Below, piece by piece: positions 1-25,170 of a stretch of 64,000 nt of DNA. The position numbers and the translations under genes are program-made. The DNA is from Propioniciclava soli. Lineage in GTDB: Bacteria; Actinomycetota; Actinomycetes; Propionibacteriales; Propionibacteriaceae. Positions within the stretch are counted from its first letter, which is position 1. The number at the start of each line of letters is the position of its first letter. The stretch is from the NCBI RefSeq assembly GCF_014858005.1, contig NZ_JACYOT010000007.1:1-64000 (forward strand). Reading direction: 5' to 3'. The notes under the pieces are model-generated. The model was not told the origin of the DNA and did not search any database. It saw only the letters and a list, made by a program, of their open reading frames with translations.

Positions 1-80
1 TTCCGACCCCTCATCCACTCTCTTTCGTGAAGAGCCGGATTCTCGGCCCACCAGCCTGTCTGCGCAGCGCTGCCGGGCCA

Positions 81-220
81 GCCTCCCTGCCGTTGGGACC
101 GCCTCCCTGCCGTTGGGACCGCCCCCCTAGCGGCGCAACGGCAGGGCGGTGCGAATCGAGCAGGGGGGCGTGGGCAGGGGCAGGGTGGCGGTGACACGGG
201 CAGGGTGGCGGCGTGCGGTC
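81..220. repeat. 20-bp-phased inverted repeat array 1
   Basis: Seven units lie on an almost exact 20-bp grid. Two perfect 20-bp tandem copies (81-100 and 101-120, core GCCTCCCTGCC) and a diverged third unit (121-140) read forward. Four units in the opposite orientation follow, beginning near 140, 160, 179 and 199, with core GGCAGGGTGGCGG. The orientation switches around 116-135, where CCCTGCCGTTG (105-115) and CAACGGCAGGG (136-146) form a perfect 11-bp inverted repeat. The same consensus recurs in the array at 30081-30494. The rest of 1-264 holds no recognisable gene. The function is unknown. Confidence 0.85.
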
Positions 221-13434: not shown

Positions 13435-16002
13435 ATGAACCGCACCCGACGCGCCGTGGCCCTGGCCGCGACGCTCGGCCTGCTCGGCGCCGGCAGCATC
13501 GCCGGCTCGGCCCAGGCCGCGACACCCGTCGACGCCATCAGCGAGGGCCTCACGCCCGTCACGCTGCTCAACTTCAACGACTTCCACGGCCGCATCGACG
13601 ACGGCCTCGCCCTGACGGGCGTACTCGGCAAGAACTTCGCCTGCACGATCCAGACGGCACGGGCCACGTACGGCGCCGAGCAGACGGTGCTGCTCTCCGC
13701 CGGTGACAACGTCGGGGCGTCGTCGTTCGCCTCCAACATTCTCGGCGACCTGCCGACGCTGGAGTACCTCAACGCGCTGGGCGTCACCGCCTCCGCCGTC
13801 GGCAACCACGAGTTCGACCGCGGCTTCCCCTGGTTGCAGGGTGAGGCGATCCCGGCCGCCGGGTTCCAGTATCTGGGCGCGAACGTCTACGAGCGGGGCA
13901 CGACCACCCCGGCGCTCGAGGAGTACCGCCTCACCGAGGTGAACGGGGTGATGCTCGGCATCATCGGTGCGGTCACCGACGAGACGCCGTCGTTGGTCGG
14001 GCCCGACGGCATTTCATCGATCGAGTTCGGCGACCCGGTCGCAGCCGTCAACCGGGTGGCCGCCCAACTCTCCGACGGCAACGCGCTGAACGGCGAGGCC
14101 GACGTCCTCATCGCCGAGTACCACGACGGTGCCGCCGTGGCGACGAGCCTAGGCGCAGCGGAGGACGCCACCGAGATCTTCGACCGCATCGTCAACGACA
14201 CCTCCCCCGCGGTCGACGTCGTCTTCAACGGCCACACCCACCTCGCCTACCAGTGGGACGGCCCGGTGGAGTCCGGCACGCGCGTCATCAGCCAGTCGGC
14301 CAGCTACGGCGCGCGGCTCGGCGTCGTCCAGCTCGGCTACAACGCCGAGACCGGCGAGGTGGAGGAGTACATCGCCAGCCAGCTCGCGACCGCGCCCGTC
14401 ACGCCCGCCTGCGAGGCCGACCCGACCTATGCGGCGGCTGCCGAGATCGTCGACGAGGCCGTGGCCAACGCCAAGGAGATCGGCACGCAACCGGTGGCCG
14501 AGATCAGCGCCGACATCACCACGGCCTACGGCGACGCCCAGGTCGTCCAGGGTGTCTACTGGGGCACGACGCGCGATGATCGCCTCCGCGAGAGCGCGTT
14601 GGGCAACCTGGCTGCCAACGCGTGGGCGTGGGCGGCCAACCAACCCGGCCGGACTGGCGCCGACATCGGCATCATGAACCCGGGCGGCCTGCGGGCCGAT
14701 CTCTTGTTCGATCCTTCCGACGCCGAGGGCGACGGGGTGGTCACCTACGCCGAGGCTGCCGCGGTGAACCCCTTCGCCAACACGCTGCAGAGCATCGACG
14801 TCACGGGTGCCGTGTTCCGCCAGGTGCTCGAGCAGCAGTGGCAGCCGGCGGCGTCGTCGCGTCCGTTCCTCAAGCTCGGGCTCTCGGACAACGTGCGTTA
14901 CACGTACGACCCGGACGCCGCCGCAGGCAGCCGCATCCTCGATGTGTGGGTCGACGGCGCGCCGCTGGACGAGGCGGCCACCTACACCGTGGCGGCGGGC
15001 AGCTTCCTGATCGGCGGCGGGGACAACTTCACCGCGCTGCAGCAGGGGACGCAGGTGCGTGACCTCGGCCTGATCGACATGGATGCGTTCATCAACTACC
15101 TGGCGGCGCAGGACGTGGTGGAGCCGTCGTTCGAGAAGAACGGCGTGGCCGTCACCGACGGCGCCCTGCCGGTCGCGCGCGGCGAGCAGGCCACGGTGCG
15201 CGTCGATGGGGTCGACCTGACCAGCCTCGGCGCCCCGGCCAACACGGAGTTCGACGTGGTGGTCGACGGCTTCACCATCGGGACAGCCGCCATCACGACC
15301 GCGCGGACGCCCGGCGTCCCGACGCGCGACGGGGCGGCCACCGTCACCCTGACGGTCAACCCGGCGTACGTGGCCGACACCGTGCAGCTCGTCGCCAAGC
15401 CATCGGGGACGGTCGTGACCCTGCCGCTGGCGGCGCTGCCCACGGCGTCGTTCTCCGACGTGACGCCGGCCACGCAGTTCCACGACGAGATCGCGTGGCT
15501 GGGCGGGGCCGGGATCGCGCAGGGCTGGCCCGACGGCACGTTCCGCCCGGTGACGGCGATCCATCGTGACGCCATGGCGGCCTTCCTGTACCGCCTCGCC
15601 GGGAGCCCCGAGTTCCCCGTCCCGGCCGAATCGCCGTTCAGTGACGTGCCGACAACCCACCAGTTCTACAAGGAGATCGCGTGGCTGTCGCAGCGCGAGA
15701 TCGCCAACGGCTGGAGCGACGGCACCTTCCGCCCCGACCTGTCGATCGGCCGGGACGCCATGGCGGCCTTCCTCCACCGCGCCGCGGGCAGCCCCGCCTA
15801 CACGCCGCCGGCGACCTCGCCGTTCAGCGACGTGACGGTCGACTCGGAGTTCTACACCGAGATCGCCTGGCTGCACTCGACGGGGATCACGACCGGTTGG
15901 CCGGACGGCACCTTCCGCCCGACCGATCCGGTGAACCGTGACGCGATGGCGGCGTTCCTCCACCGCTACGTCGCCGAGTTCGGGGTGCCCGAGCTGGGCT
16001 GA
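13435..16002 (+). CDS. Secreted bifunctional metallophosphatase/5'-nucleotidase with SLH-like repeats
   Basis: 855 residues. A signal peptide (AVALAATLGLLGAGSIAGSAQAA) precedes a calcineurin-like phosphoesterase domain with LLNFNDFHGRID (D/H metal ligands), LLSAGDNVGASSF, AVGNHEFDRG and VVFNGHTHLAYQ. The 5'-nucleotidase C-terminal domain follows (ESALGNLAANAWAWAA, GGDNFTALQQ). The tail has three SLH-like repeats, each SDV...FY.EIAWL...G.PDGTFRP...RDAMAAFLHR. It likely hydrolyses extracellular nucleotides at the cell surface. The same repeats end the amidase at 23126, suggesting a common attachment system. ATG follows GGAGGAACC. Confidence 0.93.
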   Translation: MNRTRRAVALAATLGLLGAGSIAGSAQAATPVDAISEGLTPVTLLNFNDFHGRIDDGLALTGVLGKNFACTIQTARATYGAEQTVLLSAGDNVGASSFASNILGDLPTLEYLNALGVTASAVGNHEFDRGFPWLQGEAIPAAGFQYLGANVYERGTTTPALEEYRLTEVNGVMLGIIGAVTDETPSLVGPDGISSIEFGDPVAAVNRVAAQLSDGNALNGEADVLIAEYHDGAAVATSLGAAEDATEIFDRIVNDTSPAVDVVFNGHTHLAYQWDGPVESGTRVISQSASYGARLGVVQLGYNAETGEVEEYIASQLATAPVTPACEADPTYAAAAEIVDEAVANAKEIGTQPVAEISADITTAYGDAQVVQGVYWGTTRDDRLRESALGNLAANAWAWAANQPGRTGADIGIMNPGGLRADLLFDPSDAEGDGVVTYAEAAAVNPFANTLQSIDVTGAVFRQVLEQQWQPAASSRPFLKLGLSDNVRYTYDPDAAAGSRILDVWVDGAPLDEAATYTVAAGSFLIGGGDNFTALQQGTQVRDLGLIDMDAFINYLAAQDVVEPSFEKNGVAVTDGALPVARGEQATVRVDGVDLTSLGAPANTEFDVVVDGFTIGTAAITTARTPGVPTRDGAATVTLTVNPAYVADTVQLVAKPSGTVVTLPLAALPTASFSDVTPATQFHDEIAWLGGAGIAQGWPDGTFRPVTAIHRDAMAAFLYRLAGSPEFPVPAESPFSDVPTTHQFYKEIAWLSQREIANGWSDGTFRPDLSIGRDAMAAFLHRAAGSPAYTPPATSPFSDVTVDSEFYTEIAWLHSTGITTGWPDGTFRPTDPVNRDAMAAFLHRYVAEFGVPELG

Positions 16003-25021: not shown

Positions 25022-25170
25022 CACGTGACGCACCGTGTCGCCACGTGGCGCACGTCAATCCACGTGGCGCACCCCGACACCACGTGGCGCAGCGCGGCTC
25101 ACAAGGCGGCCCGTGCACGGCCCGCCGGGTGAGCTCCCCTGCGCCACGTGCATGTCAGCTGCGCCACGTC
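25022..25170. repeat. 20-bp-phased inverted repeat array 2
   Basis: Four forward copies of CACGTGGCGCA (first one CACGTGACGCA) start at 25022, 25042, 25061 and 25081, i.e. every 19-20 bp. Two inverted copies, CTGCGCCACGTG and CTGCGCCACGTC, start at 25139 and 25159, again 20 bp apart. The intervening 8-9 bp are not conserved. The array lies between the divergent amidase and aldo/keto reductase genes. The rest of 24809-25276 holds the amidase promoter region and no gene. The core differs from arrays 1 and 3, but the geometry is the same. The function is unknown. Confidence 0.8.

Follow-up and report, generated by a model that had tools for sequence, protein, structure and literature searches.

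Results

The array at the left end of the window (the whole 64,000-nucleotide stretch of DNA analysed here, which is the start of contig C63) is, with a probability that we put at roughly 0.7, a solo copy of a cis-element found on each side of a gene that encodes a predicted AbiEi-nuclease fusion protein. Arrays of the same geometry, a dyad with an 8-bp centre followed outward by a step of 19 bp and then steps of 20 bp, are found next to homologs of that gene throughout the order. The half-site is mostly common to the two flanks of one gene and varies from gene to gene, and solo arrays match gene flanks of the genome in which they lie.

Arrays in the window

Array 1 was initially described as seven units, three followed by four inverted, on a strict 20-bp pitch around an 11-bp inverted repeat. 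The number and orientation of the units are confirmed: they start at positions 79-, 99-, 119-, 140+, 159+, 179+ and 199+, with steps of 20, 20, 21 (over the dyad), 19, 20 and 20 bp, and their 13-bp half-site is GGCAGGGnGGCGG. The 20-bp pitch holds beyond the centre but not for the centre-adjacent step, which is usually 19 bp, and the inverted centre is more exactly a dyad of two half-sites 8 bp apart. The unit at 119-131 carries the variant half-site CCCTAGC, and the sequence between the central half-sites is GGCGCAAC, compared with GTTGCAAC in most arrays. Note that array 1 may be cut on its left side, because the window begins at the contig start. The recurrence of the same consensus at 30081-30494, also part of the original prediction, corresponds to a second array of slightly larger extent (array 2; Table 1). 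Over the window as a whole, GGCAGGGTGGCGG is found 43 times with ≤2 mismatches, as compared to 11.1 (sd 3.4) in shuffled sequences.

Table 1. Positions of the arrays and of their parts in the window.
Feature	Position	Strand	Description
Array 1	79-211		three minus and four plus 13-bp units around a dyad
Array 1, left arm	79-131	-	units 79-91, 99-111, 119-131
Array 1, centre	132-139		GGCGCAAC; genome consensus GTTGCAAC
Array 1, right arm	140-211	+	units 140-152, 159-171, 179-191, 199-211
Array 2	30080-30517		same family as array 1, with an internal duplication; match to model R1 at C63:30267-30336
Array 2, centre	30297-30304		GTCGCAAC within CCCTGCCGTCGCAACGGCAGGG
Second-family array	25022-25169		CCACGTGGCGCA units; centre CGTGCACG at about 25112-25119

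The second-family array shares 58 of 72 positions with the flank of L385, a further homolog of the nuclease gene that this genome carries on contig C64; the next best match is 43. The window also displays two other features. At 29850-29900, upstream of a rhamnosidase-like gene (28527-29618), the minus strand has a strong hairpin with a T run after it that resembles a leader terminator, and at 15470-15966 there is a 186-bp tandem repeat of 2.7 copies within a long ORF (13435-16002).

The array family in the host genome

The original prediction staked the observation on the presence of further arrays in the genome, and it stands. In the host genome (G000; 3.80 Mb in 65 contigs), a sequence-only model composed of the centre and one unit per side and built from 31 arrays (R1) detects 33 arrays at E ≤ 1.6e-8, about one per 115 kb, with partial arrays at contig ends; array 1 is matched at C63:100-170 with E = 1.6e-12. 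Of these 33 arrays, 31 stand away from the nuclease gene. The count is a lower bound, because arrays probably break the assembly. Several contigs begin or end inside arrays (C4, C15, C54 ends, C63 start), and both ends of C54 carry the same sequence in inverted orientation.

The regular spacing and the orientation switch, which had been proposed as points to verify, both proved general. Over the whole genome, unit pairs at exactly 20 bp (≤3 mismatches) number 136, against 0 for the reversed pattern, and among 377 units the spacing between same-orientation neighbours is mostly 20 bp (204 cases), followed by 19 bp (38 cases). Every array read runs from minus units to plus units, left to right. 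The centre is composed of two inverted half-sites with 8 bp between them (CCACCnCCCTGCC-GTTGCAAC-GGCAGGGnGGTGG); the next unit outward usually starts 19 bp away and the further ones every 20 bp. Pooled over the 377 units, the core is again that of array 1, with position 8 free and a weak AAC before the core that mirrors the centre, and the units are better conserved than the spacers. Half-sites at the centre are of two types, GGCAGGG and GCTRGGG, found in 13 AA, 14 AB and 2 BB combinations (13.8, 12.4 and 2.8 expected), two centres being unassigned. The two halves of the centre thus combine as expected if each were chosen independently.

Units and larger blocks are also duplicated inside arrays, as for a 63-bp block at C5. 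At about 182-183 kb of C63 (L092, 1926-3186), a peptidase S51-like gene stands between two arrays that share a near-identical outer flank, a case of local array duplication.

All the multi-unit arrays examined lie between genes, while the four isolated exact matches that were checked lie inside genes. For the gene context, genes were called with our own codon-usage script rather than with an annotation pipeline. The counts omit contig-edge arrays (array 1, C4 and the C54 end; the C15 and C54 starts are unclassified) and take the two arrays of L067 as one, and L084 was reclassed from divergent to tandem owing to a tRNA gene. The 31 regions with genes on both sides comprise 12 convergent, 15 tandem and 4 divergent cases, compared to 22, 81 and 30, respectively, among 133 background gaps. 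Convergent sites are enriched, whether the comparison is made with background gaps (12/31 vs. 22/133, P = 0.012) or by intergenic length (P = 4e-7). For divergent regions, the deficit is not significant against gaps (4/31 vs. 30/133, P = 0.33) but becomes so once intergenic length is taken as the basis (P = 0.0008).

The elements flank a predicted AbiEi-nuclease gene across the order

The partner gene in G000 is located at C8:116878-117825, on a different contig from the window, and encodes a 316-aa product (P0006). By locus comparison, this two-array locus (C8:116.5-118.1 kb) is orthologous to a two-array locus of G002, a genome of the same genus, and in both the nuclease gene has one array per side. 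The homolog in G194 has two arrays on one side and the one in G001 has an element beside it. In the second G000 homolog (L385, 4992-5705), the match to P0006 starts only at residue 76; the start of the gene seems to be in a different frame, so that the gene may be broken, and two arrays still adjoin it.

Homologs are found in 312 of the 391 genomes searched in the order. The gene lies between pnp and dapB in several genera, as would be expected of a gene that is inherited and does not jump often. To measure the association, we used 100 homolog loci, chosen from the best matches listed and all from one order, together with up to 5 kb of sequence to either side, and a motif-free detector based on geometry only (a dyad with half-sites at 19 bp). 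Zones within 450 bp of the gene (near) were compared to equal-sized zones 1-4.5 kb away (far): 101 of 197 near zones exceed the threshold, against 7 of 762 far zones, with similar frequencies upstream (50/98) and downstream (51/99). When any geometry is allowed, 74 of 100 loci are positive near the gene and 2 of 97 far from it; a step of 19 bp is the best by far (56 loci near vs. 1 far at the best setting). Restricting the comparison to noncoding DNA gives 93 of 186 gene flanks against 6 of 321 other stretches (P = 4e-41), a P value that overstates the significance, as the loci come partly from closely related genomes and are not independent.

At the threshold used, the elements are on both sides in 44 loci, on one side in 15 and on neither in 41; no element was detected near the gene with any geometry in 26 of the 100 loci, nor at four distant named homologs (three from Tsukamurella, one from Collinsella). 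The upstream element is mostly about 100-300 bp ahead of the gene and the downstream one, where found, 23-347 bp past the gene match. Half-site identity averages 10.7/13 between the two sides of one gene and 6.0/13 across loci. The relative orientation of the flanks is direct in 10, inverted in 10 and undecided in 24 of the 44 two-sided loci. At four loci (L391, L357, L358 and L349), the upstream and downstream elements are nearly identical, spacers included (up to 77/80), as if the flanks had been homogenised. Array similarity tracks protein similarity (Mantel P ≤ 0.016), most strongly in the middle domain. The winged-helix sequence is unsupported as a predictor of the half-site, its partial correlation being near 0, and this also argues against the helix simply reading the half-site.

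A predicted two-domain protein

P0006 matches AbiEi_4. One of 103 homologs (L409) was dropped before the protein alignment because its open frame is too short, and a further alignment took 59 of the remaining 102, mostly element-bearing ones. PADLOC AbiEi models match all 59 homologs and Pfam AbiEi_4 matches 41 of them at E ≤ 0.01; for their C-terminus, we found neither a Pfam family match nor, with a profile, a PDB match by sequence. In the 102 homologs, E202, Q220, D235, E246, D248, E270 and R273 are invariant and K252 is present in 99%, a set that we take to be PD-(D/E)XK-like.

Structural information comes from a distant homolog (31%; L143, 2919-4480, JAIUNK010000003.1) in an actinobacterial MAG. 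Inverted 20-bp repeats that differ in sequence from the present ones lie immediately upstream of this homolog. Its single-sequence model has a mean pLDDT of 46.9, with mostly 70-88 in the C-terminal domain. A structure search with this domain places I-Bth0305I and Vsr first at a borderline Z of 8.3 each, followed by other nucleases, with a Foldseek E of 0.16. The model is suggestive of a PD-(D/E)XK fold, similar to Vsr and homing endonucleases, for the C-terminal domain of this AbiEi-type winged-helix protein. No homolog was found in the phage records and viral contigs searched, and plasmid records contain four distant homologs, with no array seen beside them.

Arrays in relatives and solo copies

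With the exact motif, 56 relatives display background only (0-2 matches each). The first impression of species specificity was overturned by profiles: over 198 genomes of the family, R1 finds diverged arrays in G002 and in G123, from another genus, and single centres elsewhere, and a cross-genus profile (R2) over 391 genomes of the order adds G122, G168 and a further match in G194. Across 22 aligned sequences the geometry is identical and gap-free and the half-site differs: GCGnGGGAAGTGG/GGTAGGGAAGTGG in G002, GGTAGGGACGTG in G123 and GGTAGCAACGTG in G168.

A pattern scan returned 75 stretches in named genomes and 11 in viral contigs, six of these 86 being inspected in part. Only L143, among the 75, also holds a homolog of the nuclease gene, a post hoc and hence weak association. 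The genome of Bacillus fonticola CS13 (NZ_CP052135.1; L112, L176) has, at several places, long tandem arrays in which a 20-bp unit, ATGCTCAGACTCAGGGAGGA, is repeated in one direction only; these look unrelated to the present arrays.

We compared 12 solo elements from five genomes to a library of gene flanks, and 11 of them have their best match within their own genome, for example with 65/72 in G122 and 61/72 in G168. The exception, from G009, scores 49 with its own flank and 50 with a sister-species flank. Array 1 matches its own-genome flank at 43/72, with 40 for the next genome, the weakest among the G000 solo matches.

Conservation does not follow RNA pairing

Hairpins in RNA or DNA, for example two-way terminators in which the C-rich left arm pairs with the G-rich right arm in transcripts of either strand, would account for the inverted layout, the palindromic centre and the closeness to gene 3' ends. 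R2 also yields single centres in another family that are near-perfect palindromes, one of them followed by T residues. Using 31 of the 33 R1 arrays (C34:445672 and C63:226669 left out), we found no covariation between arms relative to arm shuffling: core pairs amount to 163/217 for 166.5 expected (P = 0.75), and neither the spacer (P = 0.39) nor the outer unit (P = 0.82) departs from expectation. Native RNAs fold no more stably than arm-swapped ones on either strand (P 0.53-0.87 over four arm lengths), and Rfam has no match in the window at the gathering score and only sub-threshold matches in nine loci. Since the arms do not covary and swapped arms fold equally well, an RNA hairpin is not the conserved feature, and the structured RNA that the original prediction offered as one option is not supported. 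The independent combination of half-site types also stands against pairing, and a hairpin has no need of an exact pitch; overall, hairpins are a very improbable explanation of the arrays. The half-sites would rather be conserved singly, like sites read by a protein. A G-quadruplex, suggested by the G runs, was set aside as conservation is higher in CAGGG than in the outer G pairs.

Discussion

Our preferred reading of array 1 as a solo copy of the gene-flanking element has a mechanistic part that we regard as likely and another that is more tentative. The first is that the predicted protein would bind the half-sites, as a pair across the dyad and then in further copies arranged head to tail outward. 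A protein array on regular sites, the other option raised originally, agrees with the strict pitch, the independent half-sites and the linked gene for a predicted DNA-binding protein. The second, drawn from the analogy with REPs and RAYTs, is that the nuclease may help to copy the element into new intergenic sites, solo arrays being non-autonomous copies; this part is weaker and we propose it as a possibility short of even odds. On this view, arrays would be seen in intergenic DNA and at gene 3' ends because copies are tolerated there. An active nuclease might be expected to cut the 31 arrays that stand away from its gene, which counts against such a model.

Alternatively, the arrays could be sites that serve the host, bound by the AbiEi-nuclease protein as operators, as transcription barriers from one gene to the next or as chromosome-organising sites, and spread by their usefulness alone. 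Their intergenic location with over-representation between convergent genes, the better conservation of units than of spacers, and the position of the upstream element, where an autoregulatory operator would be, are all consistent with this explanation. Autoregulation alone is insufficient, however, because the downstream element, for which it has no need, is as frequent as the upstream one and because 31 copies lie away from the gene. Moreover, two array sites were examined and neither has an array at the orthologous gene in congeners with readable downstream sequence, and the few flanking genes identified, some of them named from their sequence, have unrelated functions. We thus consider host-serving sites unlikely. 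Least credible of all is tandem growth by slippage around palindromes with no cognate protein, which would fit the local duplications inside arrays such as the 63-bp block, but 33 separate arrays use the same half-site, and their architecture is tied to one gene family across the order.

Taking array 1 as a copy of the gene-flanking element, we can ask what wider class it may represent. With slightly less than even odds, the arrays would belong to a new repeat class driven by AbiEi-nuclease fusion genes, in which every gene is bracketed by dyad arrays of its own. The half-site would diverge quickly from one species or homolog to the next, whereas solo copies and flanks would keep matching the gene present in the same genome, and in some genomes the arrays would multiply intergenically. 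Family libraries give these genes the AbiEi label only, and the arrays offer a testable DNA target and role. We found no account of the gene-array link in the open-access literature searched, outside which lie most subscription papers and all preprints.

Comparison with known systems

CRISPR arrays, rightly deemed unlikely in the original prediction, share with the present ones regularly spaced repeats. Here, the units are of 13 bp, the gaps are 7-bp spacers, many of which are repeated within one array instead of being unique, and the orientation switches.

The closest likeness is with REP/RAYT systems, for which Nunvar 2010 (PMC2817692) describes a gene flanked by its own repeats, extragenic copies elsewhere and species-specific repeats. 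Similarly, a predicted nuclease gene has its own repeats on both sides in 44 of 100 loci, with the same half-site in most, and flank-type copies are dispersed in the same genome (31 of the 33 arrays of G000 lie away from the gene). Membership is nevertheless rejected: the Y1 (HUH) transposase family PF01797 has no match in G000 and 13 relatives (0/14), for 5 positives among 14 control genomes. In addition, the half-sites are not individually palindromic and are arrayed at a 19/20-bp pitch, the flanks have no fixed orientation, and the palindrome is not kept by complementary changes in the G000 arrays.

The AbiE type IV toxin-antitoxin systems share the AbiEi-like N-terminal region and the inverted repeats at their own promoter. 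PMC7319586 reports that proteins of the AbiEi type bind inverted repeats in the promoters of their own genes, two of 23 bp for AbiEi and four for Rv2827c. The present genes differ by the nuclease-like C-terminal domain, the additional downstream element and the solo copies throughout the genome, and a toxin gene would have little space, given the element that follows the stop codon. With Vsr and Vsr-like homing endonucleases (I-Bth0305I), the likeness lies in the predicted fold of the C-terminal domain; this domain is here fused to an AbiEi-like part, and homologs are absent from the phage records searched.

Because defining REP/RAYT features fail and features absent from AbiE are added, we rate the system as new in kind, its parts being known folds. 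If the repeat class proposed above is real, it would be a second independent solution to the REP/RAYT role, with a restriction-fold nuclease replacing the HUH enzyme. If the nuclease does spread its own arrays, these would form a second resident repeat family in bacteria besides REP/RAYT, relying on a different enzyme, and would provide a natural case in which a DNA-binding protein and the sites it binds change in concert in many lineages.
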